Below are positions 10,051 to 24,492 of a stretch of 27,413 nt of DNA, in pieces. Each line of letters starts with the position of its first letter. Within the stretch, counting starts at the first letter, position 1. The stretch lies in IMG/VR virus record IMGVR_UViG_3300042564_002811, positions 1 to 27,413 of that record; one strand, 5' to 3'. A program made the translations under genes and the position numbers. A model generated the notes under the pieces. It searched no databases. It saw nothing but the letters and a program-made list of their open reading frames with translations, and had not been told where the DNA came from. The stretch comes from a virus.

Positions 10051-10800
10051 ATGCACTATTTTAAGCGCAACATAGGCGATTACCACCGCAAGGCAGGGCG
10101 TCTGACAATGCTTGAGCACGGAGCGTACACGTTGCTTATGGATGCGTGTTATGACCGTGAATTATTCCCAACAAGGCAACAGGCTATTGATTGGTGCTTT
10201 GCCAGAACAGAAGATGAGATAAAGGCAGTTGAATTTGTGCTCGGTAAATTTTTCGAGCTTTCAGACGATGGCACTTATGTTCAGCTTAGAATTTTGCAGG
10301 AATTGCTTGAGTATCAGAAAAACTGTGAGACAAACAAGCAGATAGCGATTGAGCGAGAGGAAAAGAAGCGACTTAAAAAGAAAGGAGGAGCAAACGAATT
10401 GAGCACGAACCGTGCACTAGACGTTTACGAACAAGCACCTAACCAAGAACCATTAACCATTAACCAAGAACAAGATATAAAACCTACGTCGAAATCGTTG
10501 ATTTCTCCCTGCCCTGTTGAACAAATTATTTCTCTGTATCAAGAGCATTGCACAAGACTACCGCGACTAAGGGTAATACCCGATAAAACCAAAAGCGCTA
10601 TAAGCGCAAGGTGGAGACAGGATAGTAAATTTCAGAGTTTTGATTTCTGGAAAGGATTTTTCGATTACTGCAATGACAACAAATTCCTGTCCGGGCAGTC
10701 TAACCCACGACCGGGTGCTGATAAGCCATTTAGGGCGGATCTGAACTGGCTTGTTAAGCCCGAACCATTTGCCAACATAATAAACGAGAAATACGCATGA
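10051..10800 (+). CDS. Phage replication protein, DUF1376 domain
   Basis: 249 residues. The first 90 (YFKRNIGDYHRKAGRLTMLE, then a cysteine-containing helix and AIDWCFARTEDEI) are a classic DUF1376 domain, found at the start of phage replication initiators or helicase loaders. A Lys-rich linker and an Asn/Gln/Pro segment (NQEPLTINQEQ) follow. A C-terminal domain from about 160 (IISLYQEHC ... FDFWKGFFDYCNDN ... FRADLNWLV) is typical of proteins that bind replicative helicase. It overlaps dnaB by four bases. The linker DNA holds short tandem repeats that may be the origin. Role as origin binder and DnaB loader is from family and context. Confidence 0.85.
   Translation: MHYFKRNIGDYHRKAGRLTMLEHGAYTLLMDACYDRELFPTRQQAIDWCFARTEDEIKAVEFVLGKFFELSDDGTYVQLRILQELLEYQKNCETNKQIAIEREEKKRLKKKGGANELSTNRALDVYEQAPNQEPLTINQEQDIKPTSKSLISPCPVEQIISLYQEHCTRLPRLRVIPDKTKSAISARWRQDSKFQSFDFWKGFFDYCNDNKFLSGQSNPRPGADKPFRADLNWLVKPEPFANIINEKYA
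10443..10470 (+). repeat. Four 7-bp units, possible replication origin iterons
   Basis: CCAAGAA, CCATTAA, CCATTAA, CCAAGAA follow one another inside the linker of the replication gene, next to an A/T-rich stretch. Lambdoid phages place origin iterons inside the initiator gene. The repeats are short and could reflect only the repeated linker coding. Confidence 0.4.
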
Positions 10801-12164
10801 GCATTGATAACCTCAGATTACCACCACACAACGACGAAGCAGAGACCGCGGTGCTGGCTGCGATCCTGAATGACAATAACTTGATTAACGACCTTGATTG
10901 GTTGCGTGAAGATGACTTTTACCGCGGCGAGAACAAGGCGATCTACCGCCGCATGTCGGCCATGGCAATGATTGGACAGCCGATTGACCCGGTAACGCTT
11001 TGTGGCTCTCTCGATGAAGCTGGTGAGATGGTTGGCGACCTAAACCATGAGTACGTGATTGATCTTGCCTACGCCGCCCGCGGTGGCTCTAACGTGCAGC
11101 ACTATGCTGGCATGATTCGCGGCAAAGCATTCGGTCGAAAACTGATAGCGGTCGGTCAGATGATTGTTGATGCCGGTTACGGTAACGGTGAAATAGATCA
11201 AAAGATTGATCGGGCACAGTCGCTTATTAATGGTCTTGTCCCGGGAGGAACAAGAGAGCCGCGGCACATTGATGCCATTCTGAATGACGTTTTGGTCGAC
11301 CTTGAGCGTCGGTCTAAAATCAAAGGCGAGGTAATAGGACTGAAAACAGGGTTTTGTGATGTGGACAGGATGACTGGAGGATTACAGCCCGGCCAGCTTG
11401 TTGTTATTGCAGGCAGACCCGGGTCAGGCAAAACTACGTTTGCCATGAATGTTTGTGAGCATGTCATATCAGAAGGCAAGAATGTCATCGTGTTTAACCT
11501 TGAGATGATTGATGTGAACATTGCTATGAAAACCATGGCCAGCCTTGGGCGCATACCTTACGACAAGATGCGGTCCGGCGATATTGGGGAGCATGGCAGC
11601 CAGCTAAACACCGCGGCAATCAAGCTAAAGGGCCGTAACTTTTACATTGATGACAACGGGAATCTGTCCAGTAATCAGGTGGTGTCACGGGCGCGCAAGA
11701 TTGCTCAGAAACTGGGTGGTCAGATTGATCTTGTTGTTGTTGATTACCTTCAGCTGCTAAATGACAAAGGGGATGGAGTGCAGCGGATTACTGAAATATC
11801 CCGGGCGTTGAAACTTGCGGCCCGGGAACTGAATTGCCCGGTGATTGCGCTGTCACAGCTTAACCGAAGCCTAGAGAACCGCAACAACAAGCGCCCAATC
11901 CTTGCCGACCTTCGCGAGTCCGGGGCTATTGAGCAGGATGCAGACACGGTCATTATGATTTACCGAGATGAGTTGCACGATGAAAACAGCCAGCAGAAGG
12001 GGATTGCTGAAGCAATTATACGCAAGAACAGGGAAGGCGAACCCGGTACGGCTTACCTTGCTGCCCGGCTTCAGTATTGCCGGTTTGACAATCTTGATCC
12101 GAACCATATACCGCGGCAACAGCAGAAATCGAGCCGTTCCGCATTTGCACACCTTGATGAATAA
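10797..12164 (+). CDS. dnaB: Replicative DNA helicase DnaB-like
   Basis: 455 residues, full length for the family. The N-terminal DnaB domain (PPHNDEAETAVLAAIL at about 9-24) is followed by the RecA-like core. Walker A is GRPGSGKT at 206-213, Walker B is DLVVVDYLQLL at about 311-321, and later come SQLNRSLENR and the arginine-finger region. It unwinds DNA 5' to 3' at the phage fork as a hexamer. Encoding its own DnaB frees the phage from host helicase. The ATG overlaps the stop of the DUF1376 gene, supporting a loader-helicase pair. Confidence 0.96.
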   Translation: MSIDNLRLPPHNDEAETAVLAAILNDNNLINDLDWLREDDFYRGENKAIYRRMSAMAMIGQPIDPVTLCGSLDEAGEMVGDLNHEYVIDLAYAARGGSNVQHYAGMIRGKAFGRKLIAVGQMIVDAGYGNGEIDQKIDRAQSLINGLVPGGTREPRHIDAILNDVLVDLERRSKIKGEVIGLKTGFCDVDRMTGGLQPGQLVVIAGRPGSGKTTFAMNVCEHVISEGKNVIVFNLEMIDVNIAMKTMASLGRIPYDKMRSGDIGEHGSQLNTAAIKLKGRNFYIDDNGNLSSNQVVSRARKIAQKLGGQIDLVVVDYLQLLNDKGDGVQRITEISRALKLAARELNCPVIALSQLNRSLENRNNKRPILADLRESGAIEQDADTVIMIYRDELHDENSQQKGIAEAIIRKNREGEPGTAYLAARLQYCRFDNLDPNHIPRQQQKSSRSAFAHLDE

Positions 12165-12173
12165 AGGCAATCT

Positions 12174-12338
12174 ATGAAAGAAAAACACGTCAACGAAGTA
12201 ATGACCGACTTAATACGTCGATGGCCGACACCGGCAGAAGCCAGAGACGCAAGGATAGAAGCGCGTAACAAGTGGATGCCAAGAATCTGCCGGATACTGG
12301 AAATTGAATTTGTACCAATGGAGAAAAACAATGAGTGA
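12174..12338 (+). CDS. Small hypothetical protein
   Basis: 54 residues starting MKEKHVNEVMTDLIRRW, helical and basic, with AAAGG eight bases upstream. It lies ten bases after dnaB, and its last codons overlap the next ATG (ATGAGTGA). No family is recognised. Position and signals support translation. Confidence 0.55.
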   Translation: MKEKHVNEVMTDLIRRWPTPAEARDARIEARNKWMPRICRILEIEFVPMEKNNE

Positions 12339-13083
12339 CACAATCAGCAAGGCGATAGAGTTGTTACAAATCGCGTCATGCCCCTGTTGTGATGGTGCTG
12401 GGGCGTACTACGATAATCATGGCTGCGCTTGGGAGTGCCAGTTCTGCTGCGAGCGTAAGCAGGCAATAGAGGCACTCCAAGCCCTGCAAAGCGGGGAGCC
12501 AATAGCAGCCGTTCGCGGCTACTACAACGGCAGGTGCATTATTAAGCCGCTTGACCCCGCATTAGTGTTACCGGTTGGCATGGCTTTGTATGCCGCCCCG
12601 CAGCCGGTGGTTCCTGAAGGGTACATTACGCCGTTTGCATGGATGCGCCCCGAAGATGCCGCACGAACAATGATAGCGGTTGAAGGTGAGCGTGCCGAAG
12701 TTGCGCCAGACAAAGAGCATGGATTTAGTGTTCCGCTGTACAGATGCCAGCAGCCGGCGGTTGATCGCAACGAACTGATCGAGCTGCTCATTGCCACACG
12801 CACTCAGTCAGAGGGTGTAACAGCGGATTTAATTATTAAGCTGCTATCAGCAGGTGCGGTAGCAACGCCGCAGCCGGTGGTTCCTGAGCGTCTTGCCAAG
12901 TATGTAGCAAAGAAAAAAGCGGAACTTGATAGATACATAGACGAGTTTTGCCGCTCAGAGCCTGGCACTAACGCAGCGGTCTGGAATTCCGGATATCACC
13001 GGCAGCACGCAGAGGATTTGCAGGAAATTATTGACGAATTGGACGCACTGCTATCAGCAGGCAAGGGAGGTGAGCAACCATGA
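12331..13083 (+). CDS. Ea22-like mosaic early protein
   Basis: 250 residues from the ATG at 12331 (GGAG seven bases upstream), chosen over the upstream ATG at 12304. A Cys-rich head (CPCCDGAG ... CQFC) looks like a DnaJ-type or zinc-binding knuckle. Modules AIEALQALQSGEP, APQPVVPEGY, LLSAGAVATPQPVVPE and the ending LLSAGKGGEQP follow. The module PQPVVPE is present twice, exactly 90 codons apart, encoded by an identical 20-mer. The same modules occur on the other strand at 5511-6053. Unknown function. The 3' end holds an excellent ribosome binding site that now leads only to a 7-codon frame. Confidence 0.7.
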   Translation: MSDTISKAIELLQIASCPCCDGAGAYYDNHGCAWECQFCCERKQAIEALQALQSGEPIAAVRGYYNGRCIIKPLDPALVLPVGMALYAAPQPVVPEGYITPFAWMRPEDAARTMIAVEGERAEVAPDKEHGFSVPLYRCQQPAVDRNELIELLIATRTQSEGVTADLIIKLLSAGAVATPQPVVPERLAKYVAKKKAELDRYIDEFCRSEPGTNAAVWNSGYHRQHAEDLQEIIDELDALLSAGKGGEQP

Positions 13084-13103
13084 CCAAGGGCGGCTGCCGC
13101 TAA
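13080..13103 (+). pseudogene. Seven-codon vestigial ORF
   Basis: GGGAGG followed by ATG at 13080 opens a frame MTKGGCR and then a stop. The junction has the same ATGA overlap as real genes in this phage, so a gene has probably been deleted here or reduced to a mini-cistron. Low certainty. Confidence 0.3.
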
Positions 13104-13142
13104 TAAAAACGCACACAAAGAATCAAAGGGAGTCAGCAGAGC

Positions 13143-13325
13143 ATGAAAAAAGAGCAACAACAAGTAGAAAAGCTGTCAGCAGTCCTTAATGAGCTGGTCA
13201 ACATGGGGCACATTAACGCAAACGACAGAGTTAGAATTGAAGGGCATGGCGAGTGGACAGTTGGGGAATTGCTTCAAGAAGCAGCAGAAACAATTCTCGT
13301 GTCGAGGAATTTTAACAATGGGTAA
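13143..13325 (+). CDS. Small hypothetical protein
   Basis: 60 residues, MKKEQQQVEKLSAVLNELVN, acidic and mostly helical, with a central INANDRVRIEGHGEWTVGEL segment. GGGAG lies 11 bases upstream. Its stop overlaps the NinB start by eight bases. No family recognised; its place suggests an accessory early function. Confidence 0.58.
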   Translation: MKKEQQQVEKLSAVLNELVNMGHINANDRVRIEGHGEWTVGELLQEAAETILVSRNFNNG

Positions 13326-13749
13326 CACGTTTAAGGTAACGGAACTGCGGCAGATCGGAAACGCGGTTCAATGGATGGTAACAGCGGTCGAAGCCGGACT
13401 GTTAGCGGGCGAGGTCGATATCACGCTTGCACCTGAAGGCCGTTCAGCGATTCAAAATCGGCGTTTATGGGCTGTACTGACAGATATAGCAACTCAAGTC
13501 GACTGGTACGGGCAGAAGCTGTCACAAGAGGATTGGAAGCACGTATTTACTGCGTCCATGACTAAACAACGGGTAGTTCCTGGAATCGACGGGGGGTTTG
13601 TAGTCTGCGGATTATCAACATCAAAAATGACAAAGCAGCAATTTGCCGACCTGCTAACCATCATTGACGCTTTTGGCTCAGAGCAAGGGGTTAAGTGGTC
13701 AGATCCTGCGCTTGAAACATTCAGCGAATACCGCGAGGCGCAAGCATGA
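13318..13749 (+). CDS. ninB: NinB / Orf recombination mediator
   Basis: 143 residues. The RSAIQNRRLWAVLTDIATQV segment, then DWYGQKLSQEDWKHVFTASM, VPGIDGGFVVCGLSTSKM and FGSEQGVKW, are the conserved NinB blocks. NinB (lambda Orf) is a ssDNA-binding recombination mediator that replaces host RecFOR and works with annealing proteins such as Erf. The ATG at 13318 has GAGGA upstream; the longer frame from 13189 is not supported. Coupled to the next gene by ATGA. Confidence 0.9.
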   Translation: MGNTFKVTELRQIGNAVQWMVTAVEAGLLAGEVDITLAPEGRSAIQNRRLWAVLTDIATQVDWYGQKLSQEDWKHVFTASMTKQRVVPGIDGGFVVCGLSTSKMTKQQFADLLTIIDAFGSEQGVKWSDPALETFSEYREAQA

Positions 13750-13952
13750 CTTTAAAAATTGACAGAATTGGTTTATCAAGCGATCTACGAACGAATAGGT
13801 GGTCAATTATTTGCCAGTGCGGGAAACGTAATGAGCCATCAACAACGATGCGAGCAACACAGAGATTCCAATGTGAAAAATGTCAGGCTGAAATTTACGC
13901 TGATTACAATGCCAATCCGCCGACCGCAAAGATTATAGAGGCTCAAGCATGA
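13746..13952 (+). CDS. Zinc-ribbon protein between NinB and NinG
   Basis: 68 residues. CQCGK near 23-27 and CEKC near 43-46 form a four-cysteine zinc ribbon. It overlaps NinB and NinG by four bases each, so the three are made together. Small ribbons are common between nin genes; binding partner unknown. Confidence 0.65.
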   Translation: MTLKIDRIGLSSDLRTNRWSIICQCGKRNEPSTTMRATQRFQCEKCQAEIYADYNANPPTAKIIEAQA

Positions 13953-14509
13953 GGCGATGCAAGCAATGCCGAATAGAGATCCCGCCGGCTGCAAAGTGTA
14001 CTGACTTTATCAGCAAGGAGGGATTCTGCGGCATTGACTGTGCCAGTACGTGGGCTGCCTCAATGGCTACTAAACAGCGCATAAAGACACGCAAGGCAGA
14101 AACCAAAACACGCAAGGACAAGATCAAGACAAAGACAGAATGGTTGGCAGAGGCTCAGGCAGCCTTCAATCAATACATCAGGGCAAGAGATCATGGGCAG
14201 GGTTGCATATCATGCGGCACTACAAAGCAGGATATTCAGTATCACGCTGGACACTATCGAACACGTAAGGCTGCACCACAACTCAGGTTTGATGAGACTC
14301 AAGTCTGGCTCCAGTGCGCCACATGCAATAACCACCTGTCGGGCAACCTAATCAACTACAGGCGCGAATTGCTGAACAGAATTGGACAGGCAGAAGTGGA
14401 CAGGATTGAATGCGATAACAGCGAGGCAAGGTTTACGATCGATGATGCCAAGAGGATCAAAGCTGAATACAAGGCTAAATTAGCAGAGTTAAAGAGCTTG
14501 ACAGCATAG
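13949..14509 (+). CDS. ninG: NinG / Rap recombination nuclease
   Basis: 186 residues. The N-terminal knuckle CKQCRIEI and the FCGIDCASTWA segment, the long basic helix (ATKQRIKTRKAETKTRK), and the HNH-like core (CISCG ... YHAGHYRTR ... WLQCATCNNHLSGN) are diagnostic for NinG. NinG (Rap) is a structure-specific endonuclease acting on recombination joints. Cys and His zinc ligands are intact. It ends the early rightward operon, before a terminator. Confidence 0.94.
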   Translation: MRRCKQCRIEIPPAAKCTDFISKEGFCGIDCASTWAASMATKQRIKTRKAETKTRKDKIKTKTEWLAEAQAAFNQYIRARDHGQGCISCGTTKQDIQYHAGHYRTRKAAPQLRFDETQVWLQCATCNNHLSGNLINYRRELLNRIGQAEVDRIECDNSEARFTIDDAKRIKAEYKAKLAELKSLTA

Positions 14510-14543
14510 TACGCACAATGTTTTAATCCTCACCGCTGACGGT

Positions 14544-14561
14544 AACTTAATTTATTAAGTT
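14544..14561. repeat. Perfect 8-bp inverted repeat after ninG
   Basis: AACTTAAT and ATTAAGTT arms are separated by two bases. The stem is all A/T but for two pairs, so it is more likely a protein-binding palindrome than a terminator. Confidence 0.4.
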
Positions 14562-14604
14562 TCTTCAGTTTAAGTAACAAGGGAGTCCAACCCGAACACC
14601 GAAT

Positions 14605-14633
14605 AAGCCCATCGCAAGTGGGCTTTTTCATTT
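14605..14633 (+). terminator. Intrinsic terminator of the rightward early operon
   Basis: AAGCCCA and TGGGCTT arms enclose a seven-base loop, followed by TTT then CATTT. It lies 96 bases after the ninG stop and faces the convergent methyltransferase cassette. The rest of this 177-base gap shows no gene. Confidence 0.8.
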
Positions 14634-14686
14634 GTGCGTCACTAAAACTGCGCCAGCCATAAGCCAGCGCAGGGGGTTACAACAGG

Positions 14687-15889
14687 TCAAAACACCATCT
14701 CTATATTTTTCAATCTAAGTTCAGCCACACGTTTCACTATCAACGGCTTGTAGGCGGGGTTTAATTCACACAGGATTGCATTGCGCCCATTGGCCAGCGC
14801 AACACCAGCAGTTGTGCCGCTGCCGCCAAAAGGGTCTAGCACTGTGCCGCCAATCACGCCAGCCTCGCAAGAGCAGACGGCCTGAAATCCAAGTGTGACC
14901 GTTTTTATGGTTGGCCCCGTGCGGATATCAGGTGTGCTGTTTGTTTGCCTAGAGGTTAAATCCTGTTTGCCAATGATAGGGTTACCGCTTTTACCGGAGC
15001 CACTTTCAAAAGTTTTAGTTTGTTCCGTCAGTCTTTCCCACGGCTTGCCGCATTGTGAGCAGCATCGCTCAGGACAGCCAGCCAATATACAAGGCTCTAT
15101 CAGGCCGGGCGGGAAAGTGGCAAAGTGTGCGCCAGCATAAGGCTTGGTGGTGACTGTCCAGACGCTGCGCTTATTGCGCGTAGGGTTTTCCTCATCATCT
15201 TTACCCTGAAGCCCTTTGTGCGCTCCACCGGAGATTGGAACCTCTCCTGATGTGTACTTGCCTGCCGACCGATCTCTCGCTCCCCAGTTCTGCGCCTCCT
15301 CCTTGATAGCCTCATGGTCATAGTAATACGTGGCAGACTTGGACAGCAGAAAAATATATTCATGCGACTTAGTGCATCTGTCTGTTACGCTTTCCGGCAT
15401 GGGGTTTGGCTTGTGCCAGATAATATCCTGACGCAGATACCAGCCGTCTGCTTGCAAGGCAAAGGCTACTCGCCAAGGAATGCCGATGAGGTCTTTATGC
15501 TTGAGGCCAATGGCTTGAGCGTTGCGGGTAGGGTTGTATCCGTCATGCCTATCCCGGTTAACGCGATCACCATCTTGAGTCTTTCCGCCCTTGCCGCCAG
15601 CAAGCGTCTCTGCTGGTTGATGTGTGCCGCCTCGCTGTGCGGCATAACTATCCCCAAGGTTTAACCATAAAGTGCCATCCTCTCGCAGCACTCGGCGCAC
15701 CTCGTGAAATACTTTAATCAGCTTTGCAACAAACTCCTCTGGTGTTGGCTCAAGACCTATTTGCCCATCATGGCCGTAATCACGCAAGCCGAAGTATGGA
15801 GGGCTAGTCACGCAACAATGCACCGACTGATCGGGCATCTGGCGCATAGAGTCGATGCAATCGCCAATATGTATTTGGTAGTCATTCAT
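14687..15889 (-). CDS. DNA methyltransferase (N4-cytosine or N6-adenine)
   Basis: 400 residues from an ATG at 15889 that overlaps the stop of the small membrane peptide. The catalytic motif TSPPYFGLRDYG is near residue 28, and the AdoMet motif LDPFGGSGTT near 351, so this is the beta-type order of the DNA_methylase family. SPPY is more frequent in N4-cytosine enzymes but also occurs in N6-adenine enzymes. A CCSQCGKPW stretch near the C-terminal third is a zinc knuckle usual in phage enzymes of this type. No restriction endonuclease of a known type is beside it. It probably protects phage DNA from host restriction or modifies promoter use. Confidence 0.9.
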   Translation of the reverse strand: MNDYQIHIGDCIDSMRQMPDQSVHCCVTSPPYFGLRDYGHDGQIGLEPTPEEFVAKLIKVFHEVRRVLREDGTLWLNLGDSYAAQRGGTHQPAETLAGGKGGKTQDGDRVNRDRHDGYNPTRNAQAIGLKHKDLIGIPWRVAFALQADGWYLRQDIIWHKPNPMPESVTDRCTKSHEYIFLLSKSATYYYDHEAIKEEAQNWGARDRSAGKYTSGEVPISGGAHKGLQGKDDEENPTRNKRSVWTVTTKPYAGAHFATFPPGLIEPCILAGCPERCCSQCGKPWERLTEQTKTFESGSGKSGNPIIGKQDLTSRQTNSTPDIRTGPTIKTVTLGFQAVCSCEAGVIGGTVLDPFGGSGTTAGVALANGRNAILCELNPAYKPLIVKRVAELRLKNIEMVF

Positions 15890-15972
15890 AGCAACACCAA
15901 CATAAACATCCCAGCACACAGGATGCACGTCAGGACACCACAAAGGACATCAATCTTCTGGGCGCGGGTCAT
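15886..15972 (-). CDS. 28-residue membrane peptide before the methyltransferase
   Basis: MTRAQKIDVLCGVLTCILCA, then GMFMLVLL. One transmembrane helix from about residue 9 to the end contains three Cys. AAAGGA lies eight bases before the ATG, which overlaps the zinc-ribbon stop; its own stop overlaps the methyltransferase start. It may be a real micro-protein or simply a translational link to a gene that lacks its own ribosome binding site. Confidence 0.5.
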   Translation of the reverse strand: MTRAQKIDVLCGVLTCILCAGMFMLVLL

Positions 15973-16145
15973 TTAAATATTCCTTTAAAAAGGTTTTCAG
16001 CAGAATATTCGTAATTCTTTGCCATGTTGTTAGTGCGTTCAGTTCTGACGCATTTGCCGCAAATGTGATACATGTCCTTTTTAAGTTTAGCGTCTCGTAT
16101 TTCGCCAAGGTACTCGCCGCATTTGTAGCAGTGTATTTGTCTCAT
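15969..16145 (-). CDS. Small zinc-ribbon protein
   Basis: 58 residues starting MRQIHCYKCGEYLGEI. Cysteine pairs CYKC (6-9) and CGKC (29-32) form one ribbon, with a charged helical tail. GAGGT lies 8 bases before the start, and both ends are coupled by ATGA overlaps. Likely DNA- or protein-binding adaptor; function unknown. Confidence 0.62.
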   Translation of the reverse strand: MRQIHCYKCGEYLGEIRDAKLKKDMYHICGKCVRTERTNNMAKNYEYSAENLFKGIFK

Positions 16146-16792
16146 TCCACACCTCGCAGCCGTGGCAGAATGGTTTCCAAAGCAGAAGCTAGTCGCATGT
16201 CAGTATTTGGATAGCCGTTTGCGTCAACGTCAGGGCTTAAGGCGTCGAATATATCGCTCAGGATGCTCCAAGCTGCCTTGTACTCAGGCGTTGGCAGGTC
16301 GTGGCGCACGGCAGCTTGTAGGGCTGCTGTGATATACTGCGTGCGTGACATCTCGCACTTATGTGCGGCTTTTGTAAGCTGACGTAAGAGGCTGTCAGGT
16401 AGGCGCAGGCTTGTAGGTGCGCCCGCTCCCCGCTCAGGCTTAATAATCGGAGTTGCAGCAATTACGTCAAATGGGTCTTGCAGATCGCCTACAGACGCAT
16501 TGAATTTATCTATTGCAGACACAACGGCGGCAATAGCAGAGCAGTCGTCAGTAAAGTTAAAGTATTCTCGTTTTGGGTGAACCCTGCATTTAATCAATTC
16601 ACCATGTATAAATTTTTCAAGGCGTGTATGAAATTTATTTTTTGCATCAAATATCGGAACAAATTTATGGTCTAGCCCCATAGATGAATAACCCGCTATT
16701 CTGTTTTTAAGTATTTGGGTGGTTCTGCCAATCTTGTATTGATTTGGCATGCTTTTGTTTTTAAGTATGTATATGGTTCCTTCGTCGCTCAT
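16142..16792 (-). CDS. GIY-YIG-like (T5orf172/MUG113) domain fused to a ribbon-helix-helix domain
   Basis: 216 residues. Residues 5-80 carry GTIYILKNKSMPNQYKIGRT, a conserved Arg in NRIAGY, a Glu in RLEKFIHGEL and REYFNF. This is the layout of the T5orf172/MUG113 branch of GIY-YIG nucleases (TIY ... YKIG). Residues about 125-165 (TSLRLPDSLLRQLTKAAHKC, then MSRTQYITAALQ) are a ribbon-helix-helix DNA-binding domain. A final helical part ends LPRLRGVE. So a nuclease-like fold is tethered to a specific DNA-binding module. Possible roles are a site-specific nuclease, a homing-type enzyme or a repressor. AGGGG lies 8 bases upstream. Catalysis is not proven. Confidence 0.72.
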   Translation of the reverse strand: MSDEGTIYILKNKSMPNQYKIGRTTQILKNRIAGYSSMGLDHKFVPIFDAKNKFHTRLEKFIHGELIKCRVHPKREYFNFTDDCSAIAAVVSAIDKFNASVGDLQDPFDVIAATPIIKPERGAGAPTSLRLPDSLLRQLTKAAHKCEMSRTQYITAALQAAVRHDLPTPEYKAAWSILSDIFDALSPDVDANGYPNTDMRLASALETILPRLRGVE

Positions 16793-16959
16793 TGTTTATC
16801 CCCTTTGATTGCGGCGTTAGTTGCAGCCTCAAGCGCATCAATAACAAATTGGTTTTTAGTGGTGCGCTTAATGTGAGCCGCCTCATTGATCCTTTTTCGC
16901 AGCCCGTCTGATATGCGGAATGTGGTTGGGTACTTGTCTTTATCGTGCGGGTTTTGCAT
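16789..16959 (-). CDS. Arc-like ribbon-helix-helix repressor
   Basis: 56 residues from an ATG at 16959 with GAGG eight bases upstream. YPTTFRISDGLRKRINEAAH and NQFVIDALEAATNAA form the beta-strand plus two helices of Arc/MetJ-type repressors, which bind DNA as dimers of dimers. First gene of the leftward cassette, so it probably represses its own promoter, where tandem 9-bp repeats lie. Confidence 0.78.
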   Translation of the reverse strand: MQNPHDKDKYPTTFRISDGLRKRINEAAHIKRTTKNQFVIDALEAATNAAIKGDKQ

Positions 16960-17011
16960 AAACGCCTCAGTAGTTTGTGGGTAGCAATGCCGGAAACAAC
17001 AAGATAGCACA

Positions 17012-17038
17012 CAAAGCAAGCAAAGCAATCAAAGCAAA
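17012..17038. repeat. Three 9-bp tandem repeats
   Basis: CAAAGCAA plus one variable base is repeated at 17012, 17021 and 17030, about 50 bases upstream of the Arc-like gene. Spacing close to one helical turn suits cooperative binding of ribbon-helix-helix dimers. Confidence 0.65.
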
Positions 17039-17056
17039 CACAATAGTTTCTATCAA
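17028..17056 (-). promoter_or_regulatory. Candidate promoter of the accessory leftward cassette
   Basis: Minus-strand TTGATA (17056-17051) and TTTGAT (17033-17028), 17 bases apart. The -10 lies inside the tandem repeats, so bound repressor would block it. The -10 match is moderate. Confidence 0.35.
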
Positions 17057-17165
17057 TACAGAGCAGATCAATAGATTATTTGTATCGCTACGCTAATCGG
17101 GTTGAGATACACTTAGCCGTTGATTGTAGTAGTGCTGACCCTCAGCGCGTCCTTGGCGCGCCTTG

Positions 17166-17193
17166 TGCCTCCGAAGTTTGGGGGCATTTTTTT
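17166..17193 (+). terminator. Intrinsic terminator just before the late promoter
   Basis: TGCCTCC and GGGGGCA arms (one G-T pair) with a seven-base loop, followed by seven T. It would insulate the late operon from transcripts arriving from the left. Confidence 0.7.
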
Positions 17194-17220
17194 GCCTTAT
17201 GGTTTGTGGTGGCGTACAAT
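17192..17220 (+). promoter_or_regulatory. Late promoter for packaging and head genes
   Basis: TTGCCT (17192-17197), 17 bases, TACAAT (17215-17220). The -35 overlaps the end of the terminator T-tract. Transcription would start near 17227, about 38 bases before terS. Confidence 0.6.
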
Positions 17221-17230
17221 GAGACATAAG

Positions 17231-17243
17231 GCGGCAGTGCCGC
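17231..17243 (+). repeat. Small perfect palindrome at the late start point
   Basis: GCGGCA, one base, TGCCGC. It would lie at the very 5' end of the late mRNA, or could be an operator or a terminase-binding site. Confidence 0.4.
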
Positions 17244-17264
17244 GATAGATCAACGGTGTTGATT

Positions 17265-17669
17265 ATGGGCAGCAAAACAGAATCACGATCAGTCGGCAGA
17301 CCTCGCCTGTATGATACGCCTGAGCAGTTTGACGCCAAAGTCGAGGAATACAAACTTTACTGCGACACCAAGCCAGAGCCGGTCACATGGACAGGGCTTG
17401 CACTGTATCTCGGATTTTCATCCCGCCAATCTATTGACGAATACCTCAACTATGACGGATTTTCTGACTCCGTAAAACGGGCAAAGTCGCTTGTTGAGTA
17501 TAGCTACGAGCTAAAACTACACGGCGCATCACCAACTGGCAGCATATTTGCACTTAAAAACTTTGGCTGGTCTGATAAGTCAGCAGAGCCAGAAGGCATC
17601 AGCGCGGATCAGGTGATTGAGATAATCAGGGCGGCAAGGCCGGAACAAAGTGCAGCTCGCCCTGACTGA
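17265..17669 (+). CDS. terS: Terminase small subunit
   Basis: 134 residues from the ATG at 17265. A basic N-terminus (SRSVGRPRLYDTPEQF) is followed by a helix-turn-helix region (TWTGLALYLGFSSRQSIDEY) and a C-terminal helical part. This matches small terminase proteins that recognise the packaging site and regulate the large subunit. The first gene of the late operon; it overlaps terL by 20 bases. The ribosome binding site is weak. Confidence 0.82.
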   Translation: MGSKTESRSVGRPRLYDTPEQFDAKVEEYKLYCDTKPEPVTWTGLALYLGFSSRQSIDEYLNYDGFSDSVKRAKSLVEYSYELKLHGASPTGSIFALKNFGWSDKSAEPEGISADQVIEIIRAARPEQSAARPD

Positions 17670-18894
17670 GCCGCAAGAGGACTTTGTATTCTCAACCAAC
17701 CCATACCCTGCGATGGTGGCGGGCTTGGGCGCTGGGAAATCAGAGGCCGGTATAGCAAGGCTGGTCATCAAGATGGCGCAGCAGCCGCAGATTAATACCG
17801 CGTATTACATGCCAACCTATGACTTGCTAAGACTGCGCGCAATGCCTGGCGTCGAGGACATGCTGTCAAGGCTTGGGCTACCCTTTAAAACGAACAGATC
17901 AGAGTACACCATCCACATCAGAGGCTACGGCGACATGATATTCCGGTCATACGACAGACCGGAGCGTATCGTTGCGTACGAGGTGGCAGATTCTATTGTT
18001 GATGAGCTGGACACGTTACCAAAGGACAAGGCGGCGTATGTGTGGCGCAAAGTGTCAGAGCGTAACCGGCAGCACTGCGGCAGAGCCAACACAATCGGCA
18101 GCGTGACAACGCCAGACCAAGGCTATTCCGGCTTTACTTATGAAAAGTGGGTCAAGAAACGCCAGAAAGGGTATGAGCTTATCAAGGCATCAACGGCAAG
18201 CAACCCGTTTTTGCCAGATGGCTACATCGAGCAGATACGCGCAAACTATGACCCGATACTGGCTGACATGTATCTCAATGGCGAGTTTGTCAGCCTGTCA
18301 CAGAACAAGGTCTATCACTTTTTTGACCGCATCAAACACCACAGCGACAGGGTGCTGACAGCCGATGACACCTTTGTTCACATTGGGCTAGACTTCAACA
18401 TAGGCGGCACATGCGCCACCGTCTGGGTGATTGACAACAACCAGCCGATTGCCGTTGATGAGTTCGTCAGTCACGACACAATGGACTTTTGCAACAACCT
18501 TACAAAGTACAAGGCAGAGGGGCGCAAGCTGATTGTTTACCCTGACGCATCCGGCAAGTCGGGCAGCACAAACGCAAGCCAGTCAGACATTGAGATTATT
18601 ATCCAAGCCGGTTACAGGGTAGACTGTGCAGAGGCTAACCCAGCGGTGCGTGACAGAATAAACTCCGTCAACGGATTGCTGGCGCATGATAAAATGCGCG
18701 TCAACACGGACAAATGCCCGAACCTGACAGATGCACTTGAGTCGCAGGGCTATGATACAAAGGGCGACCCAGAGAAGTTCAAAGACCACCCGGCAATAGA
18801 CGACTGGAACGACAGCATGGGTTATTTTATTTACCGCAAATGGCCTGTGCGCCGACCGTCGAGCGCAGGTGTAAAAATGGGAGGGCGCTGGTAA
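17650..18894 (+). CDS. terL: Terminase large subunit
   Basis: 414 residues from a GTG start within the end of terS, probably translationally coupled. Walker A is GLGAGKSE at 25-32. The Walker B region DSIVDELD is near 114-121, with Asp-Glu for ATP hydrolysis. GLDFNIGG near 248 begins the RNase-H-like nuclease domain, with later acidic residues in PDASGKSG and DDWNDSMGY. The motor cuts and translocates phage DNA into the prohead through the portal. Full length. Its stop shares a base with the next ATG (TAATG). Confidence 0.94.
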   Translation: MQLALTEPQEDFVFSTNPYPAMVAGLGAGKSEAGIARLVIKMAQQPQINTAYYMPTYDLLRLRAMPGVEDMLSRLGLPFKTNRSEYTIHIRGYGDMIFRSYDRPERIVAYEVADSIVDELDTLPKDKAAYVWRKVSERNRQHCGRANTIGSVTTPDQGYSGFTYEKWVKKRQKGYELIKASTASNPFLPDGYIEQIRANYDPILADMYLNGEFVSLSQNKVYHFFDRIKHHSDRVLTADDTFVHIGLDFNIGGTCATVWVIDNNQPIAVDEFVSHDTMDFCNNLTKYKAEGRKLIVYPDASGKSGSTNASQSDIEIIIQAGYRVDCAEANPAVRDRINSVNGLLAHDKMRVNTDKCPNLTDALESQGYDTKGDPEKFKDHPAIDDWNDSMGYFIYRKWPVRRPSSAGVKMGGRW

Positions 18895-20138
18895 TGGCTG
18901 CCGACTCGCTCGCAGACACACTGCTAAGACATGCCACATATCTGGACAGGGTGGCATCTGGCGTTATCAAAGACTCTGTTGACCCTGCAATGATTGCCAT
19001 CGCTATTGCGGTGCGTCAGGCGCTTGCTGATTACGCGCCCGACATGAGCCGGATAGAGTTTATCCAGATGCGCTCGCGTATCAGACAGATCGCTGACACG
19101 CAGTTGCGCGCCATGATGACAACCGTCACCAATCAGATGACCGACATTTCCCTGGCAGAGGCGACTTACTTTGCCGGCATTGTTGAAGAGTTTGCAGCAA
19201 AGGGCGTCTCTGTTGCGATACCGTTACCGACAAGCATCGCGCTCAGTGTGCAGCGTGAGATGGTATTGACCGCTGGCGCATCAAGTCAGGTCGGCACATG
19301 GTCGGAGTTCGTCGCAGGGACAACACAGGCGCAGACACAGCTTATCGACAACACAATACGCGCAGGGTACGCAGACGCACAGACAAAAACCGAGATTGTT
19401 AAGCGCCTTGTTGGCACGGGCAAGCTTGATTACTCAGACGGGCTGATTATCAACCGCGCAAAACGTCAGATTGAAACGCTTGTCAGGACGGGCATAAATC
19501 ATTACTCCAACGAGGCAAAGCGCGCAGTTACTGAGCAAAACGAGGATATTGTTGAGGGTTATGTGTTCTTAAACGTGTTCGACAACCGCACAACGCTCAC
19601 CTGTCTGCACTTTGGGGAGTTGGCCGCAACCGGCAAGATTTACAAGGTTGATGACCCTGACACTCCGCGCCCGCCTTTGCACTACAACTGCCGCTCGCAA
19701 CTGATATTCAAGGTGCAGGGGCTAGACCCGTTTGCCGGGCGCATGGCATCGGTAGGCGGTCAAGACACGGCAGAGGCAGCAGAGGCATACAACAAACGAC
19801 AAGAGCGCCTAGACGAGCGCAGGGACGCAGCAGCCGAGAGACGGGCAGAAGGCTTGCCAGCAAAAGAGGTTTCATCCAAGGTTACGCGCAAGGGGCGCGC
19901 AGACGATACGATATTCAAGGCAGGCACGATCAGTGCAGACACTAGCCCGTCAGAGTTCCTGAAGCAGCAGCCGCGCTGGTTTGTGGAGTCAACACTTGGC
20001 AAGTCGCGGGCGGCGTTGTTTCTGGATGGTAACCTGCCTATTGAGAAGTTCACCGACATGCAGGGGTCGCCGCTCACCCTGTCACAGCTACGGGCAATGG
20101 ATGACACAGACGCGGCATTCAGGCGGGCTGGTTTGTGA
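18894..20138 (+). CDS. Mu F-like head morphogenesis protein
   Basis: 414 residues from the ATG at 18894. The mid-region has TGINHYSNEAKRAV, then VFLNVFDNRTTLTCLHFGEL and PPLHYNCRSQL. This is the MuF/SPP1 gp7 domain pattern with its C-x-x-H and H-x-N-C-R elements. The C-terminal third is charged and helical. Proteins of this family are minor capsid components packed in few copies. It lies between terL and portal, where many phages instead have the portal first. Confidence 0.85.
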   Translation: MAADSLADTLLRHATYLDRVASGVIKDSVDPAMIAIAIAVRQALADYAPDMSRIEFIQMRSRIRQIADTQLRAMMTTVTNQMTDISLAEATYFAGIVEEFAAKGVSVAIPLPTSIALSVQREMVLTAGASSQVGTWSEFVAGTTQAQTQLIDNTIRAGYADAQTKTEIVKRLVGTGKLDYSDGLIINRAKRQIETLVRTGINHYSNEAKRAVTEQNEDIVEGYVFLNVFDNRTTLTCLHFGELAATGKIYKVDDPDTPRPPLHYNCRSQLIFKVQGLDPFAGRMASVGGQDTAEAAEAYNKRQERLDERRDAAAERRAEGLPAKEVSSKVTRKGRADDTIFKAGTISADTSPSEFLKQQPRWFVESTLGKSRAALFLDGNLPIEKFTDMQGSPLTLSQLRAMDDTDAAFRRAGL

Positions 20139-20161
20139 TATTGCAGCATCGGCGCTATAAT
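20133..20161 (+). promoter_or_regulatory. Internal promoter before the portal gene
   Basis: TTGTGA, 17 bases, then a perfect TATAAT (20156-20161), overlapping the end of the MuF-like gene. The portal ATG follows 27 bases later with only a weak ribosome binding site. Confidence 0.5.
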
Positions 20162-20188
20162 CAGCAAAACGGCTTACGGGTTTAGATC

Positions 20189-21661
20189 ATGGCGCGAATA
20201 AAATCATCGGCAAGGATATTTCAAAAGCCGGACATTGTTGTGCATGAGCAGTATGACGTTACGCTGCCCGATGTTGTAAAGGTGCGCGACTTCCTTGAAG
20301 GCGAGCCAGCGGTCAAGCGCAAGAAAACCACGTATTTACCGCACCCAAACACCGCGCAAGCAAAAAACCCGGGGCAAGATGAGCTGTATGCCGCATACCT
20401 AATGGGCGGAGAGGTTGAGGACTTCGCCGCACGCACACTTGAGTCAATGCTTGGCAGGCTTAACCGGAACCCCGTCGTCTATGGGTTGCCATCAGAAATC
20501 GCGTATCTTGAGTACGATGCAGACGGAGACTGGACAACACTACAGGAGACCGTCGAGGCTGTTGCCAATAACATATTGGCTGTTAACTACCACATATTGG
20601 TCGCAGAGTACGAGCGGGTTCCCGATGGCGTTGCCGAGCTATCGGTCGCCCAAAAGCAGGCGCTCGGCCTTCGCGCATACATTAGGCAGTACGCACGTGA
20701 AAGCCTGTATGATTGGCAGTTCGGCAAAATCAACGGACGGACGCAGCTTGTTTATGCAAAGCTTGTGACAAGCGAGGTGCGACGCGCAGAAGATGGCCCT
20801 TATTTGCACACAGACGAGCTTGAGCTGTTTTTGGACGAACAAGGCTACAGGCAGACGCTGACCAAATACAAAAACGCCGAGCCTATCGGCCAGCCAAAGG
20901 CGTTTATCCCGATGGCAATGAATAAGCGGCTCACGTATATCCCTATAGAGATTGTCACGGCAGACCGTACGCCCAAAGGCACAGTGCCCAAAAAGACGGG
21001 TTACATCGCGCCATTGGTTTATAAAGCCCACCATCGCTACCAAGTGTCAGCGGATCTCAAAGAAAAGCTGCGAATCATGCAGGACACCAGCTATTCAAGC
21101 GGCTGGTCAGAGGCAAACAAAGAGGAATTCAACAGCATCAACGGGCGACAGTATTTTGCCTTCGGCGCAGGCGTGCATAACTTTCTGCCGCAGGGTGTTG
21201 AGATTGATATCCTCAAAATGCAGGCCGACGGGGATGCGCATTTTAAATATCTGGAAATGAATGCCGGTGAGGTGCAGGCGCTCGGCGGTCGGTTTAACAC
21301 CTCAGAGAAAGAGGTGACGGCAACCGAGGTGATGGATGCAGCAGCAGAGGAGCTGGCAGAGCTTAACCTGATTGCAAACAATATCGAGTCTGCTTTTAAG
21401 CGCATGCTGTGCTACTGCGCTGAATTTGAAGGACTGACAATAACGCCGGAAAAAATAGAGTTCAGCATTAACCGCGAGTTCGTGGCGCAGAACATGACGC
21501 CAGACGAGGTTAGGGCAGTGCGCGAAACCTTCCTAGACAGACTAATAAGCCGTGAACAGGCAGTCCAGAAATTCATAGACGGCGGTTTTTTGCGCGGCGA
21601 GGTTGATGTAATCCTTAACGATATTGATGACGATTTGCCAGAGCCGGAAACAGGCGTATAA
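20189..21661 (+). CDS. Portal protein, DUF4055 type
   Basis: 490 residues. The sequence from about residue 25 to 480 matches DUF4055 phage proteins, with HPNTAQAKNPGQDELYAAYL near the start, a long alpha/beta middle and NQMT-type C-terminal helices (ESAFKRMLCYCAEFEGL, then NREFVAQNMTPDEVRAVRET). This family serves as portal, the dodecameric ring for DNA entry and tail attachment. Placement between MuF and scaffold agrees. The gene is intact, and an internal promoter precedes it. Confidence 0.85.
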   Translation: MARIKSSARIFQKPDIVVHEQYDVTLPDVVKVRDFLEGEPAVKRKKTTYLPHPNTAQAKNPGQDELYAAYLMGGEVEDFAARTLESMLGRLNRNPVVYGLPSEIAYLEYDADGDWTTLQETVEAVANNILAVNYHILVAEYERVPDGVAELSVAQKQALGLRAYIRQYARESLYDWQFGKINGRTQLVYAKLVTSEVRRAEDGPYLHTDELELFLDEQGYRQTLTKYKNAEPIGQPKAFIPMAMNKRLTYIPIEIVTADRTPKGTVPKKTGYIAPLVYKAHHRYQVSADLKEKLRIMQDTSYSSGWSEANKEEFNSINGRQYFAFGAGVHNFLPQGVEIDILKMQADGDAHFKYLEMNAGEVQALGGRFNTSEKEVTATEVMDAAAEELAELNLIANNIESAFKRMLCYCAEFEGLTITPEKIEFSINREFVAQNMTPDEVRAVRETFLDRLISREQAVQKFIDGGFLRGEVDVILNDIDDDLPEPETGV

Positions 21662-21670
21662 TTAAACCAT

Positions 21671-21687
21671 CCAGCACCGTGTGCTGG
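21671..21687 (+). repeat. Stem-loop between portal and scaffold
   Basis: CCAGCAC, three bases, GTGCTGG: a perfect seven-base stem. No T-tract follows, so it is probably an mRNA processing or stability element instead of a terminator. Confidence 0.5.
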
Positions 21688-21717
21688 TCAACCGACAGAC
21701 AATGAGGGGCGGTGCCC

Positions 21718-22437
21718 ATGAGTGATTTGACAGCAGAGCAGTTTGGCCAGTTACCTGAGTTTATCAAAGGCGACTATCAAGAAGTTGAGGCGGATGGCGT
21801 AAAAACGTACCGGCACGCCGGAGTGCTAAAACTTAAAGGCACACTCAATGAGCTTGATGGCAAGCTTAAAGCAACATCGTCAAAGCTGACAGAGTACGAG
21901 GCGACACAAGCGCAGCGGCAAGCGGAAGCAGAAAAGGCTGCGTTTGAGAAGATGAAAAAAGAAGGCAAGATTGACGAGATTTTAGAGGATCAGCGCAAGC
22001 GGCATGAGGCAGAAAAGGCCGAGTTGTCGGAAAAGCTGACCAACAAGGACAAGGCTATAATCCGCAAGGCTGTTGATGGCGTGGCCTCCGACCTTGCGGC
22101 AGAGATTGCTACGGATGTGGGTCGGGCGATGGTAAAAAAAGAGATTGCCAGCCGCGTGCAGTTTGACCCAGATACAGAAAAGTACACTTTTTTAGACGAG
22201 GATGGCAGTGCCACTTCGCTGGATTTGAAAGGCTTTAAAGCGGAGCTTCTCAAGTCGCAAGCCCTTAGCCCTTTAATCAAAGCGCAGTTCTCTAGCGGCG
22301 GCGGTGCAGATGGCGGGCAGGGAAAAAATACTGGCGGTGCCAGTCAGAAAACAGTAACACGCTCGCAGTTTGATGCGATGGGACACAAAGACCGACTGGA
22401 ATTCGCCAAAGCTGGCGGCAAAATAACCGATAATTGA
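21718..22437 (+). CDS. Scaffold protein
   Basis: 239 residues from the ATG at 21718, with GAGGGG upstream; a GTG two codons earlier is possible. Residues about 40-130 form a charged coiled coil (Glu, Lys, Ala, Gln). A small domain and a flexible Gly-rich part (SSGGGADGGQGKN) come before the last basic helix. This is the usual build of a siphovirus scaffold that guides coat assembly and then leaves the prohead. It lies right before the coat gene. No protease domain is seen. Confidence 0.8.
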   Translation: MSDLTAEQFGQLPEFIKGDYQEVEADGVKTYRHAGVLKLKGTLNELDGKLKATSSKLTEYEATQAQRQAEAEKAAFEKMKKEGKIDEILEDQRKRHEAEKAELSEKLTNKDKAIIRKAVDGVASDLAAEIATDVGRAMVKKEIASRVQFDPDTEKYTFLDEDGSATSLDLKGFKAELLKSQALSPLIKAQFSSGGGADGGQGKNTGGASQKTVTRSQFDAMGHKDRLEFAKAGGKITDN

Positions 22438-22459
22438 TTTGCATTTGGAGTAACTGAAC

Positions 22460-23614
22460 ATGCCTAACGTACTAACCGATTTAGCTGCCGATATTTACGT
22501 TGCAGCAGATATTGTCGCCCGCGAGCAAGTGGGCGCTGTTTCATCCGTTGTTATCAACGGTAATGCGTCTGAGCGCGTTGCTGTCGGCGGAGTCGTCCGC
22601 TCGCACTTCACACGCGCAGCGACCTTGATCGAGAATGCCTCGCCATCAATGACCATTCCTGAGGGCACGGATCAAACGATTGACAATAAAACAGCGACGA
22701 TCAGCAAGACCGCAAACGTGCAGATCCCGTGGACTGGCGAGGAAATGCGCCTGATCGACAACGGCTCTGGCTTTGAAACCGTTTACGGCGATCAGATCGC
22801 ACAGGCGATGCGCACGATCACAAACAAAATTGAGCAGAATCTGTTAATTGAGATCTACAGAAACGCCTCTCGCGTAGTCGGCACATCAGGCACAACTCCC
22901 TTTGCGTTAGACTTTAATGCAATGGCAGAGCAGCGCCAGATTCTGGCAGACAACGGCACGCCGATGGCGGACGGCCAAATATTCACTATACTGTCATCCG
23001 TTGCAGGTACAAAGCTACGTAATTTGGCACAACTGCAAAAAGCGAACGAGGCAGGCTCTGACCGCATGCTGCGGCAAGGCGTTCTGCTGGATCTGCAAGG
23101 CATTGCGCTCAAAGAGACCGCCTTTGCACCAGCGCACACCAAGGGCACTGGTACGGGATATCTGGTTAATGCCGGCGCGGGTCTCGCTGTTGGCGCAACT
23201 GCTATCCCTGTTGATACCGGTACGAACACTATCGTCGCTGGCGATGTGATCACGTTTGCTGCCGATACAGCCAACCAATATGTTGTTGCTACAGCATTGA
23301 CGGGCGGCGTGGTGACGATTGCTGCGCCCGGTCTGCGCGTTGCAATCCCTGACAATAATGCGATCACTGTAACTAACAACTACACGGCAAACGCCACCTT
23401 CCACCGAAACGCAGTCGAGCTGATCATACGCCCGCCAGCGATGCCAAAAGGTGGAGACGCGGCTGTTGATATGCTGACAGTCCAAGACCCCCGCTCCGGG
23501 CTAGTGTTTGAGATTGCCGCGTATAAGGGCTACCAGAAGGCCATGTTTGATGTGCGCTGCGTCTACGGCTATGAGGTATGGAAGCCAGAGTTCGTGACCG
23601 GCGTTAAAGGCTGA
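22460..23614 (+). CDS. Major capsid protein, P22 gp5-like
   Basis: 384 residues with GGAG upstream of ATG. The N-terminus MPNVLTDLAADIYVAADIV and the blocks IPWTGEEMRLID and ITNKIEQNLLIEIYRNA match the P22 coat family, an HK97-fold coat. A beta-rich insertion from about 230 to 300 (GAGLAVGATAIPVDTGTN and following) is in the place of the P22 I-domain. The end (DPRSGLVFEIAAYKGYQKAM, then CVYGYEVWKPEFVTGVKG) is conserved. Forms the icosahedral shell. Confidence 0.92.
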   Translation: MPNVLTDLAADIYVAADIVAREQVGAVSSVVINGNASERVAVGGVVRSHFTRAATLIENASPSMTIPEGTDQTIDNKTATISKTANVQIPWTGEEMRLIDNGSGFETVYGDQIAQAMRTITNKIEQNLLIEIYRNASRVVGTSGTTPFALDFNAMAEQRQILADNGTPMADGQIFTILSSVAGTKLRNLAQLQKANEAGSDRMLRQGVLLDLQGIALKETAFAPAHTKGTGTGYLVNAGAGLAVGATAIPVDTGTNTIVAGDVITFAADTANQYVVATALTGGVVTIAAPGLRVAIPDNNAITVTNNYTANATFHRNAVELIIRPPAMPKGGDAAVDMLTVQDPRSGLVFEIAAYKGYQKAMFDVRCVYGYEVWKPEFVTGVKG

Positions 23615-23658
23615 TAACAATTAACAGGGGGCTGGCGCAATCCAGCCCTTTTGTTATC
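23613..23658 (+). terminator. Terminator after the coat gene with extended outer stem
   Basis: GGGCTGG and CCAGCCC (23629-23648) enclose six bases and are followed by TTTT. A second perfect stem, GATAACAA (23613-23620) with TTGTTATC (23651-23658), wraps around it. Probably a partial terminator that keeps coat mRNA in excess over connector genes. Confidence 0.72.
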
Positions 23659-23668
23659 TGGGGTAATT

Positions 23669-24142
23669 ATGGCAATCGTCGTCGAGACTGGCACAGGCAC
23701 AAACCCTGATGCTAATTCCTATATTGATACTGATTACCTCGCAGCGTACGCGCTTGATCGGGGTTATGAGATACAGTCGGAGCCGTCTAATTTAATTTAC
23801 GCAGCGATGGACTGGATAGAAAATCAGCAGTATCAGGGCTGGATCAAGGAGGAAAAACAGCCTCTTTTGTGGCCGCGCCATGATGTTTATTATCGCGGGT
23901 ATTTGCTATCCGCTGACGAGATACCTGCACTGGTTAAAAAGGCACAGGCTGCACTTTGTCTTGAGATAGACAGAGGATATAACCCTCTCGCTACGATCAC
24001 CCAAGGCGTCAAGCGCGAGAAAGTCGGAGAGATCGAGGTCGAGTATCAGGACGGCACAGGCACGTTTGCTATCCGCAGTGTTAATCAAATATTGCGCCCC
24101 TTGCTCGCTGGCGGCATGAATAGCGCCATGAGGGTGTTATGA
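23669..24142 (+). CDS. Head-tail connector / adaptor protein (DnaT-like)
   Basis: 157 residues from the ATG at 23669 (GGGGT upstream). The start MAIVVETGTGTNPDANSYID and the central LLWPRHDVYYRGY match head-tail adaptor proteins sometimes labelled DnaT-like ssDNA-binding in phage annotations. It would form the first ring under the portal. Stop overlaps the next ATG. Confidence 0.75.
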   Translation: MAIVVETGTGTNPDANSYIDTDYLAAYALDRGYEIQSEPSNLIYAAMDWIENQQYQGWIKEEKQPLLWPRHDVYYRGYLLSADEIPALVKKAQAALCLEIDRGYNPLATITQGVKREKVGEIEVEYQDGTGTFAIRSVNQILRPLLAGGMNSAMRVL

Positions 24143-24492
24143 GCCGGTACAACTACGCTCCGCTGCAACAATCTGCTGCCAGACTCATAAATAAGTTTGG
24201 CGCAGAGTACACGTTTGAGCGGCAGGTCGAGCGCGACTACGACCCAGAGACCGGCAAGCCAACAGCGAGAAAGTTTGTCTACACTCGCAACGGCGTTGTT
24301 GTGGATTTTGATCGCAGTGAAGTGGCACAGAACACTGTCCAGCAGGGCGATATTAAACTGCTGGCAGAAAGTGAGGATTACAACATCGGTGACTTGGTCA
24401 GCGTCAACTGTCTACAATATCGAATCGTCAGCATGATACCCATCCAAGGCAGTCAGCAGGCGCTGGCTGTTTATTTACATTTGAGGAAGTGA
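24139..24492 (+). CDS. Head closure / head-tail stopper
   Basis: 117 residues; ATGA overlap with the adaptor. A beta-rich protein with YDPETGKPTARKFVYTRNGV and a repeated strand pattern, as in head-tail stopper proteins that close the portal after packaging. Assignment depends largely on the fixed gene order here. Confidence 0.65.
   Translation: MSRYNYAPLQQSAARLINKFGAEYTFERQVERDYDPETGKPTARKFVYTRNGVVVDFDRSEVAQNTVQQGDIKLLAESEDYNIGDLVSVNCLQYRIVSMIPIQGSQQALAVYLHLRK

Follow-up and report, generated by a model that had tools for sequence, protein, structure and literature searches.

A leftward operon of uncultured phages that pairs a small regulator and a conserved membrane microprotein with exchangeable DNA-modification genes

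P2-like phages and P4-like satellites carry hotspots of exchangeable anti-phage genes (PMC9122126). Similarly, the locus analyzed here holds differing accessory genes at a fixed place in related phages; in contrast to the antiviral systems described there, its slot contains DNA-modification genes and is bounded by the stop codon of a gene for a membrane microprotein (TM28) and one hairpin. Type II toxin-antitoxin systems with RHH antitoxins share with this locus a small RHH gene, an overlapping small effector gene behind it, and likely autoregulation, whereas the second gene here encodes a membrane peptide of 27-28 aa and the regulator is replaceable. T5orf172 proteins include phage homing-type nucleases with shuffled DNA-binding domains, a precedent for such nucleases at exchange boundaries (PMC10448857). 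The group also contains ICP1 Odn, which serves as a sequence-specific weapon against a satellite (PMC8263062). These nucleases likewise combine T5orf172 with a separate DNA-binding domain; in the GIY-RHH protein of the present locus, however, the DNA-binding part is an RHH and the host gene is a resident regulator. The survey text (PMC10448857) does not mention a fusion of RHH to T5orf172. Orphan phage methyltransferases of the N6_N4_Mtase/phrog_67 family, such as those of Salicola phage CGphi29 and Serratia phage Tsm2, are 55-59% identical over most of their length to the enzyme studied here, which differs from them in being encoded by a leftward operon, downstream of an RHH regulator and TM28. 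Our literature search, a weak test, found no report of such a cassette.

The window, the whole stretch of DNA analyzed, is a 27.4-kb IMG/VR phage record. Between ninG and terS it contains a leftward cassette of five genes in the order Arc, T5orf172/GIY-YIG fused to RHH (GIY-RHH), zinc ribbon, a 28-aa membrane peptide (TM28), and an N4/N6 DNA methyltransferase (Table 1). Sequence inspection confirmed all five reading frames and the four-base overlaps reported in the first-pass annotation, with exactly 4 bases shared by each neighboring pair. Its description as a moron-like accessory operon running against its neighbors also agreed with our results, as the cassette has its own predicted promoter and terminator, varies among relatives, and is flanked on either side by conserved backbone genes. 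The same annotation had placed terminators on both sides; the leftward one after the methyltransferase was supported, whereas the hairpin on the terS side faces rightward and is situated upstream of the cassette promoter, and so does not border the cassette transcript. That hairpin, located just upstream of terS in the stretch 17093-17256, is not preceded by a rightward gene, as at a Q-type late promoter. The proposed correspondence to the place of Q, between ninG and the packaging genes, holds as geography only; no Q gene was recognized. An Rfam search gave no match. Another contig, IMGVR_UViG_3300042544_001320, was 100% identical to the window in two compared stretches that together cover positions 10145-24891. 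In addition, a 51-bp inverted repeat (90% identical; window 5926-5976 and ~12450-12500) links two dissimilar early genes, both of which contain the segment IEALQALQSGEP...PQPVVPEG, and possibly represents a duplicated module.

Table 1. Coordinates of the cassette and its flanking features in the window, with the evidence for each
Feature	Position	Strand	Evidence
Terminase small subunit, gp3-like, right flank	17256..17669	+	PF16677 1.9e-16
Rightward terminator-like hairpin, flank, between cassette promoter and terS	17165..17187	+	hairpin fold
Promoter/operator-like block	17001..17033	-	repeats, extended -10 and -35-like hexamer; block conserved in relatives
Arc/RHH-family small regulator, 56 aa	16789..16959	-	weak TacA1/HicB/Arc matches; 70-86% identical homologues at the same locus
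GIY-RHH protein, 216 aa	16142..16792	-	Pfam; invariant residues; AT-rich nuclease half; stand-alone RHH homologues
T5orf172/MUG113 (GIY-YIG superfamily) domain within GIY-RHH	~16780-16532	-	Pfam
RHH regulator part of GIY-RHH	~16414-16307	-	stand-alone RHH homologues
Zinc-ribbon-like ORF, 58 aa, CxxC...CxxC	15969..16145	-	sequence pattern only
TM28, 28-aa membrane microprotein	15886..15972	-	40 loci, 28 haplotypes, median dN/dS ~0.13
N4/N6 amino-methyltransferase cargo, 400 aa	14687..15889	-	PF01555 1.8e-43; phrog_67 5.8e-75
Cassette-end terminator hairpin containing GCGCTGGCTTATGGCTGGCGC	14648..14672	-	fold z = -2.3; right border of cargo slot
Terminator-like hairpin of convergent ninG operon, flank	14605..14625	+	hairpin fold
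ninG/rap, convergent left flank	13949..14509	+	PF05766 7.4e-51

Relatives were first found using the terminase as bait, and their leftward unit after ninG lacked the methyltransferase while keeping a stand-alone RHH half and the 28-aa membrane peptide. Searching with either of two differing alignments of this peptide then gave the same 40 TM28 loci, all from uncultured phages. Across these loci the peptide is 27-28 residues long and is encoded by 28 nucleotide haplotypes that differ mostly by synonymous changes (median dN 0.157 versus dS 1.27), with the positions I-D, T and A-G-M-F invariant. From these haplotypes, invariant positions and substitution rates we conclude that TM28 is a real protein under strong constraint; a chance ORF or an RNA element was considered and rejected, because synonymous variation dominates. 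By our own arithmetic, the Kyte-Doolittle values of LCGVLTCILCAGMFMLVLL average ~2.6, as is typical of a membrane helix. TM28 is a conserved membrane microprotein that had previously gone undescribed and unannotated, and it matched no toxin family.

The comparison identified an RHH-fold regulator followed by TM28, transcribed against ninG, as the core of the cassette. The RHH family was present in 37 loci, and all 35 of these that are not truncated by a contig end contained TM28 as well; in two further loci (L154 and L167) an Arc-family gene precedes TM28 instead. Therefore, the stable part of the cassette is TM28 with the RHH regulator and not the methyltransferase-nuclease pair. The convergent neighbor was NinG in nearly all loci and a Prim-Pol primase in L147, and the cassette was found on at least two terminase backbones. 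In L167, the Arc protein encoded ahead of TM28 (1883-2059) has at its end the tail of the RHH gene, to which it is otherwise unrelated (NRTLGVSNESKN; cf. NKTLGVSNESKNN of L164), as though recombination had taken place between the genes of the two regulators. Neither RHH nor TM28 relatives were found in isolate phages, a host genome scan with RHH gave no match, and the single TerL match, to a Methylococcaceae MAG, was too weak to name a host.

Behind the core lies a cargo slot between the TM28 stop codon and a near-invariant terminator hairpin, which was empty in 27 loci and filled in 13. The hairpin GCGCTGGCTTATGGCTGGCGC occurred with 0-2 mismatches in 29 of the 40 loci, 5-7 bases past the TM28 stop where the slot is empty and otherwise just past the inserted gene. 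In the whole viral collection, exact copies were found once per contig and in TM28 loci only, with the exception of one contig that begins inside a gene for a TET-associated glycosyltransferase (TAGT). The TM28 stop was TAA in 27/27 loci without downstream cargo and TGA in 13/13 filled loci, a rule obeyed by four unrelated cargo families, although the 40 loci are related and do not amount to 40 independent events. In the methyltransferase loci, the PAPS loci and L182, the cargo ORF starts inside the TGA of TM28 (ATGA/GTGA), and the C5 loci have the same GTGA at the TM28 stop; the TAGT loci other than L182 first have a 74-75-aa ORF about ten bases beyond it. Pairwise comparison revealed clean insertions of the methyltransferase (L175 versus the empty L178) and of the PAPS-reductase-like gene (L181 versus the empty L174). 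Moreover, segments of the methyltransferase are 95% and 89% identical between the window and L175 while their NinG proteins are just 73% identical, indicating that the cargo moves apart from its surroundings.

Unrelated DNA-modification enzymes were found as cargo in different phages. Besides the N6_N4_Mtase of the window and L175, these comprised C5 methyltransferases (PF00145) in L180 (= L094) and, by its sequence, L154, and TAGT (PF20691, E ~1e-48) in L104 and L155, with the same protein in L148, L152 and L182. The PAPS_reduct proteins of L181 and L177, with PADLOC matches to BrxP, SspD and DndC, may be metabolic rather than DNA modifiers. In L162, a phrog_757 DNA methyltransferase lies between RHH and TM28. 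No TET partner was found for TAGT in these records, which are fragments, and the control was likewise negative. Counting each family once, DNA modification accounted for 4 of 5 cargo families as against about 3 of the 36 other protein families of at least 150 aa in the same loci (hypergeometric p ~0.002 by our own arithmetic), where modification families were recognized among the 25 commonest Pfam families listed. Those three were two N6_N4_Mtase families and one Mom family, among the families listed. This bias is an enrichment and not exclusivity, and is moderate because these phages often carry methyltransferase and Mom genes in other places too. Outside the slot we observed a Mom-family protein (PF25680, assigned from the family tally) at L180:528-1301 and ParB-N6/N4 methyltransferase fusions upstream of terS at L149:804-2024 (= L106:4237-5457) and L165:2656-3315. 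The whole ninG-terS region looks like a DNA-modification island.

The methyltransferase of the window, whose presence in the cassette the first-pass annotation had recognized correctly, has the beta-class order of motifs by inspection, with the (S/D)PPY catalytic motif (TSPPY at 28-32) ahead of the SAM-binding FxGxG motif (DPFGGSGTT at 352-360). Its relatives in the PDB are TTHA0409-type 2zie, CcrM and N4C methyltransferases. A Cys-rich insert of ~73 residues (CxxC...CxC; window 14849-15068) before motif I is missing from the 95%-identical methyltransferase of L175. In a neighbor scan that covered GIY, RHH, zinc ribbon and TM28, none of these four occurred at 80 further viral loci encoding the nearest relatives of the methyltransferase, so none of these orphan-type enzymes shares the context of RHH and TM28.

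The region upstream of Arc contains three direct repeats of 9 bp, TTTGATTGC, TTTGCTTGC and TTTGTGTGC (window 17033-17007), which abut an extended -10 (TGC-TATCTT, 17006-17001), and a TTGCTT -35-like hexamer 16 bp upstream of this -10. L179, L172, L154 and L167 retain the block, while further upstream the leader has mostly diverged. The Arc and RHH assignments are weak on single sequences and clear from conservation. Since the direct repeats over the promoter adjoin the Arc/RHH gene, we infer that Arc and/or RHH autorepress the predicted promoter through them. The dedicated repressor proposed earlier is consequently supported as a likely autorepressor by the conserved repeats, with binding itself being predicted. 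The element GGCCACGGACGGCC is a doubtful RHH operator, as it also precedes the starts of unrelated ORFs, including ORFs of L097 and L139, two loci in which RHH was not detected. The palindrome TGCAATA-N3-TATTGCA occurs upstream of some loci and is not general across them.

In the relatives, a repeated element (~TAACCAACCACGGCCACGGACGGCCAYnAACACAGAGGATAA-ATG) was observed directly before the starts of several unrelated small ORFs, with up to three copies per locus (L175:4562 and 4807; L184:1982/2227/2589; L104, L106, L163, L177 and others); it is absent from the window. Start-associated sequences have been described in Cluster K mycobacteriophages (PMC3203893), which are similarly repeated, have inverted repeats and stand directly before unrelated start codons. 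The element of the relatives differs from these in sequence and, as far as seen, is confined to the accessory region. It may serve as a linker for gene shuffling.

The N-terminus of GIY-RHH matched Pfam T5orf172 (1.5e-11) and MUG113 (3.6e-9), and the catalytic Tyr, Arg and Glu of this GIY-YIG domain are present; Y8, Y19, R31 and E76 do not vary among the three GIY-RHH homologues. At 38.6% GC, compared with 50.5%, the nuclease-like half ranks with the most AT-rich parts of the window; its GC content is ~33% in L172 and L179, and by comparison with homologues that lack GIY it is an AT-rich insertion that keeps the frame of the RHH gene. Based on the invariant residues, the AT-rich half and the T5orf172 precedents, GIY-RHH looks like a regulator into which an AT-rich homing-type nuclease domain was inserted, and a homing function or one against relatives is possible by analogy. 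PADLOC matched its N-terminal part to PDC-S57, a phage-defence candidate (4e-16). Its AlphaFold model (pLDDT 63) was too poor for a structural claim and Foldseek gave no significant match. The adjacent zinc-ribbon ORF had no significant family and, apart from the identical contig, no homologue among the 40 TM28 loci, being found only in this phage.

Taken together, we consider it probable, at about 0.62 and judging from sequence comparison, that the cassette is an accessory phage operon supplying exchangeable DNA modification for anti-restriction under the control of its own RHH-fold repressor. Arc and/or RHH would act as repressors of the promoter by binding to the repeats that cover it, and cargo would be translated by coupling to TM28. 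We infer that the methyltransferase, by marking phage DNA, would protect it from cleavage by host restriction enzymes. The RHH gene would have acquired its GIY-YIG half as a homing-type nuclease domain, and this domain may help the locus to spread or may be used against relatives. Because 27 of the 40 loci lack downstream cargo, DNA modification cannot be the core's own function. TM28 would act in the inner membrane on its own account, and its retention where no cargo is present leads us to guess at superinfection exclusion.

The first-pass annotation had likened the methyltransferase and its nuclease-like partner to an unusual restriction-modification or anti-competitor unit; in the former case, restriction would fall to the GIY protein and protection to the methyltransferase. 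The two do share one operon, but Arc, GIY-RHH and TM28 occur without the methyltransferase in two lineages (L172/L173 and L179), and L175 has the methyltransferase without GIY or zinc ribbon. Together with the 80 other methyltransferase loci, where GIY, RHH and TM28 are lacking, this independent occurrence led us to reject an obligate GIY-methyltransferase pair. As a cognate restriction endonuclease linked to the methyltransferase, GIY-RHH is not supported, because the two are separable, and GIY is moreover fused to a regulator. The restriction-modification reading is therefore largely refuted already and highly improbable. An anti-competitor role of GIY-RHH is possible in view of its PDC-S57 match and the Odn precedent (PMC8263062). 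It is also quite unlikely that RHH-TM28 is primarily a toxin-antitoxin-like or superinfection-exclusion module with modification genes as incidental cargo behind it. Its pairing in 35/35 intact loci, even when no cargo is present, the small overlapping genes with the regulator first, and weak CopG_antitoxin matches would fit such a module, whereas the exchange of Arc for RHH in L154 and L167 is unlike a cognate antitoxin, the lack of a toxin family matching TM28 speaks against a toxin, and the bias of the cargo to DNA modification argues against incidental cargo.

GIY-RHH might instead be the driver, as a homing endonuclease or an I-TevI-like nuclease/autorepressor, or in an anti-competitor variant like ICP1 Odn; RHH would find the same locus in relatives, cutting would spread the cassette, and the methyltransferase would be a passenger. 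The T5orf172 domain with its invariant catalytic residues, the AT-rich insert within an otherwise conserved RHH gene, the PDC-S57 match, and the precedents of homing nucleases (PMC10448857) and Odn (PMC8263062) favor this proposal. Nevertheless, GIY was found in just three lineages and the cassette and its cargo are exchanged in many GIY-less loci, indicating that it is not the general mover, and we regard such a role as rather unlikely. A more far-reaching proposal, which we put forward tentatively as a possibility, is that RHH-TM28 is an undescribed gene-capture platform, an autonomous membrane-peptide module with a repressor of its own, in which unrelated DNA-modification genes are swapped in translational coupling at the fixed junction of TM28 stop and downstream terminator; in some lineages its regulator would have become a GIY-YIG nuclease directed sequence-specifically against relatives.

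In the favored reading of an operon for exchangeable DNA modification, a conserved membrane microprotein is tied to the place at which environmental phages swap DNA-modification enzymes of different chemistry at a single junction, and these swappable enzymes probably let each phage disguise its DNA from bacterial defences. If this is true, the TM28-hairpin junction would be a search handle for new anti-restriction enzymes in metagenomes, and TM28 would offer a definite starting point for studying the role of very small membrane peptides of phages.
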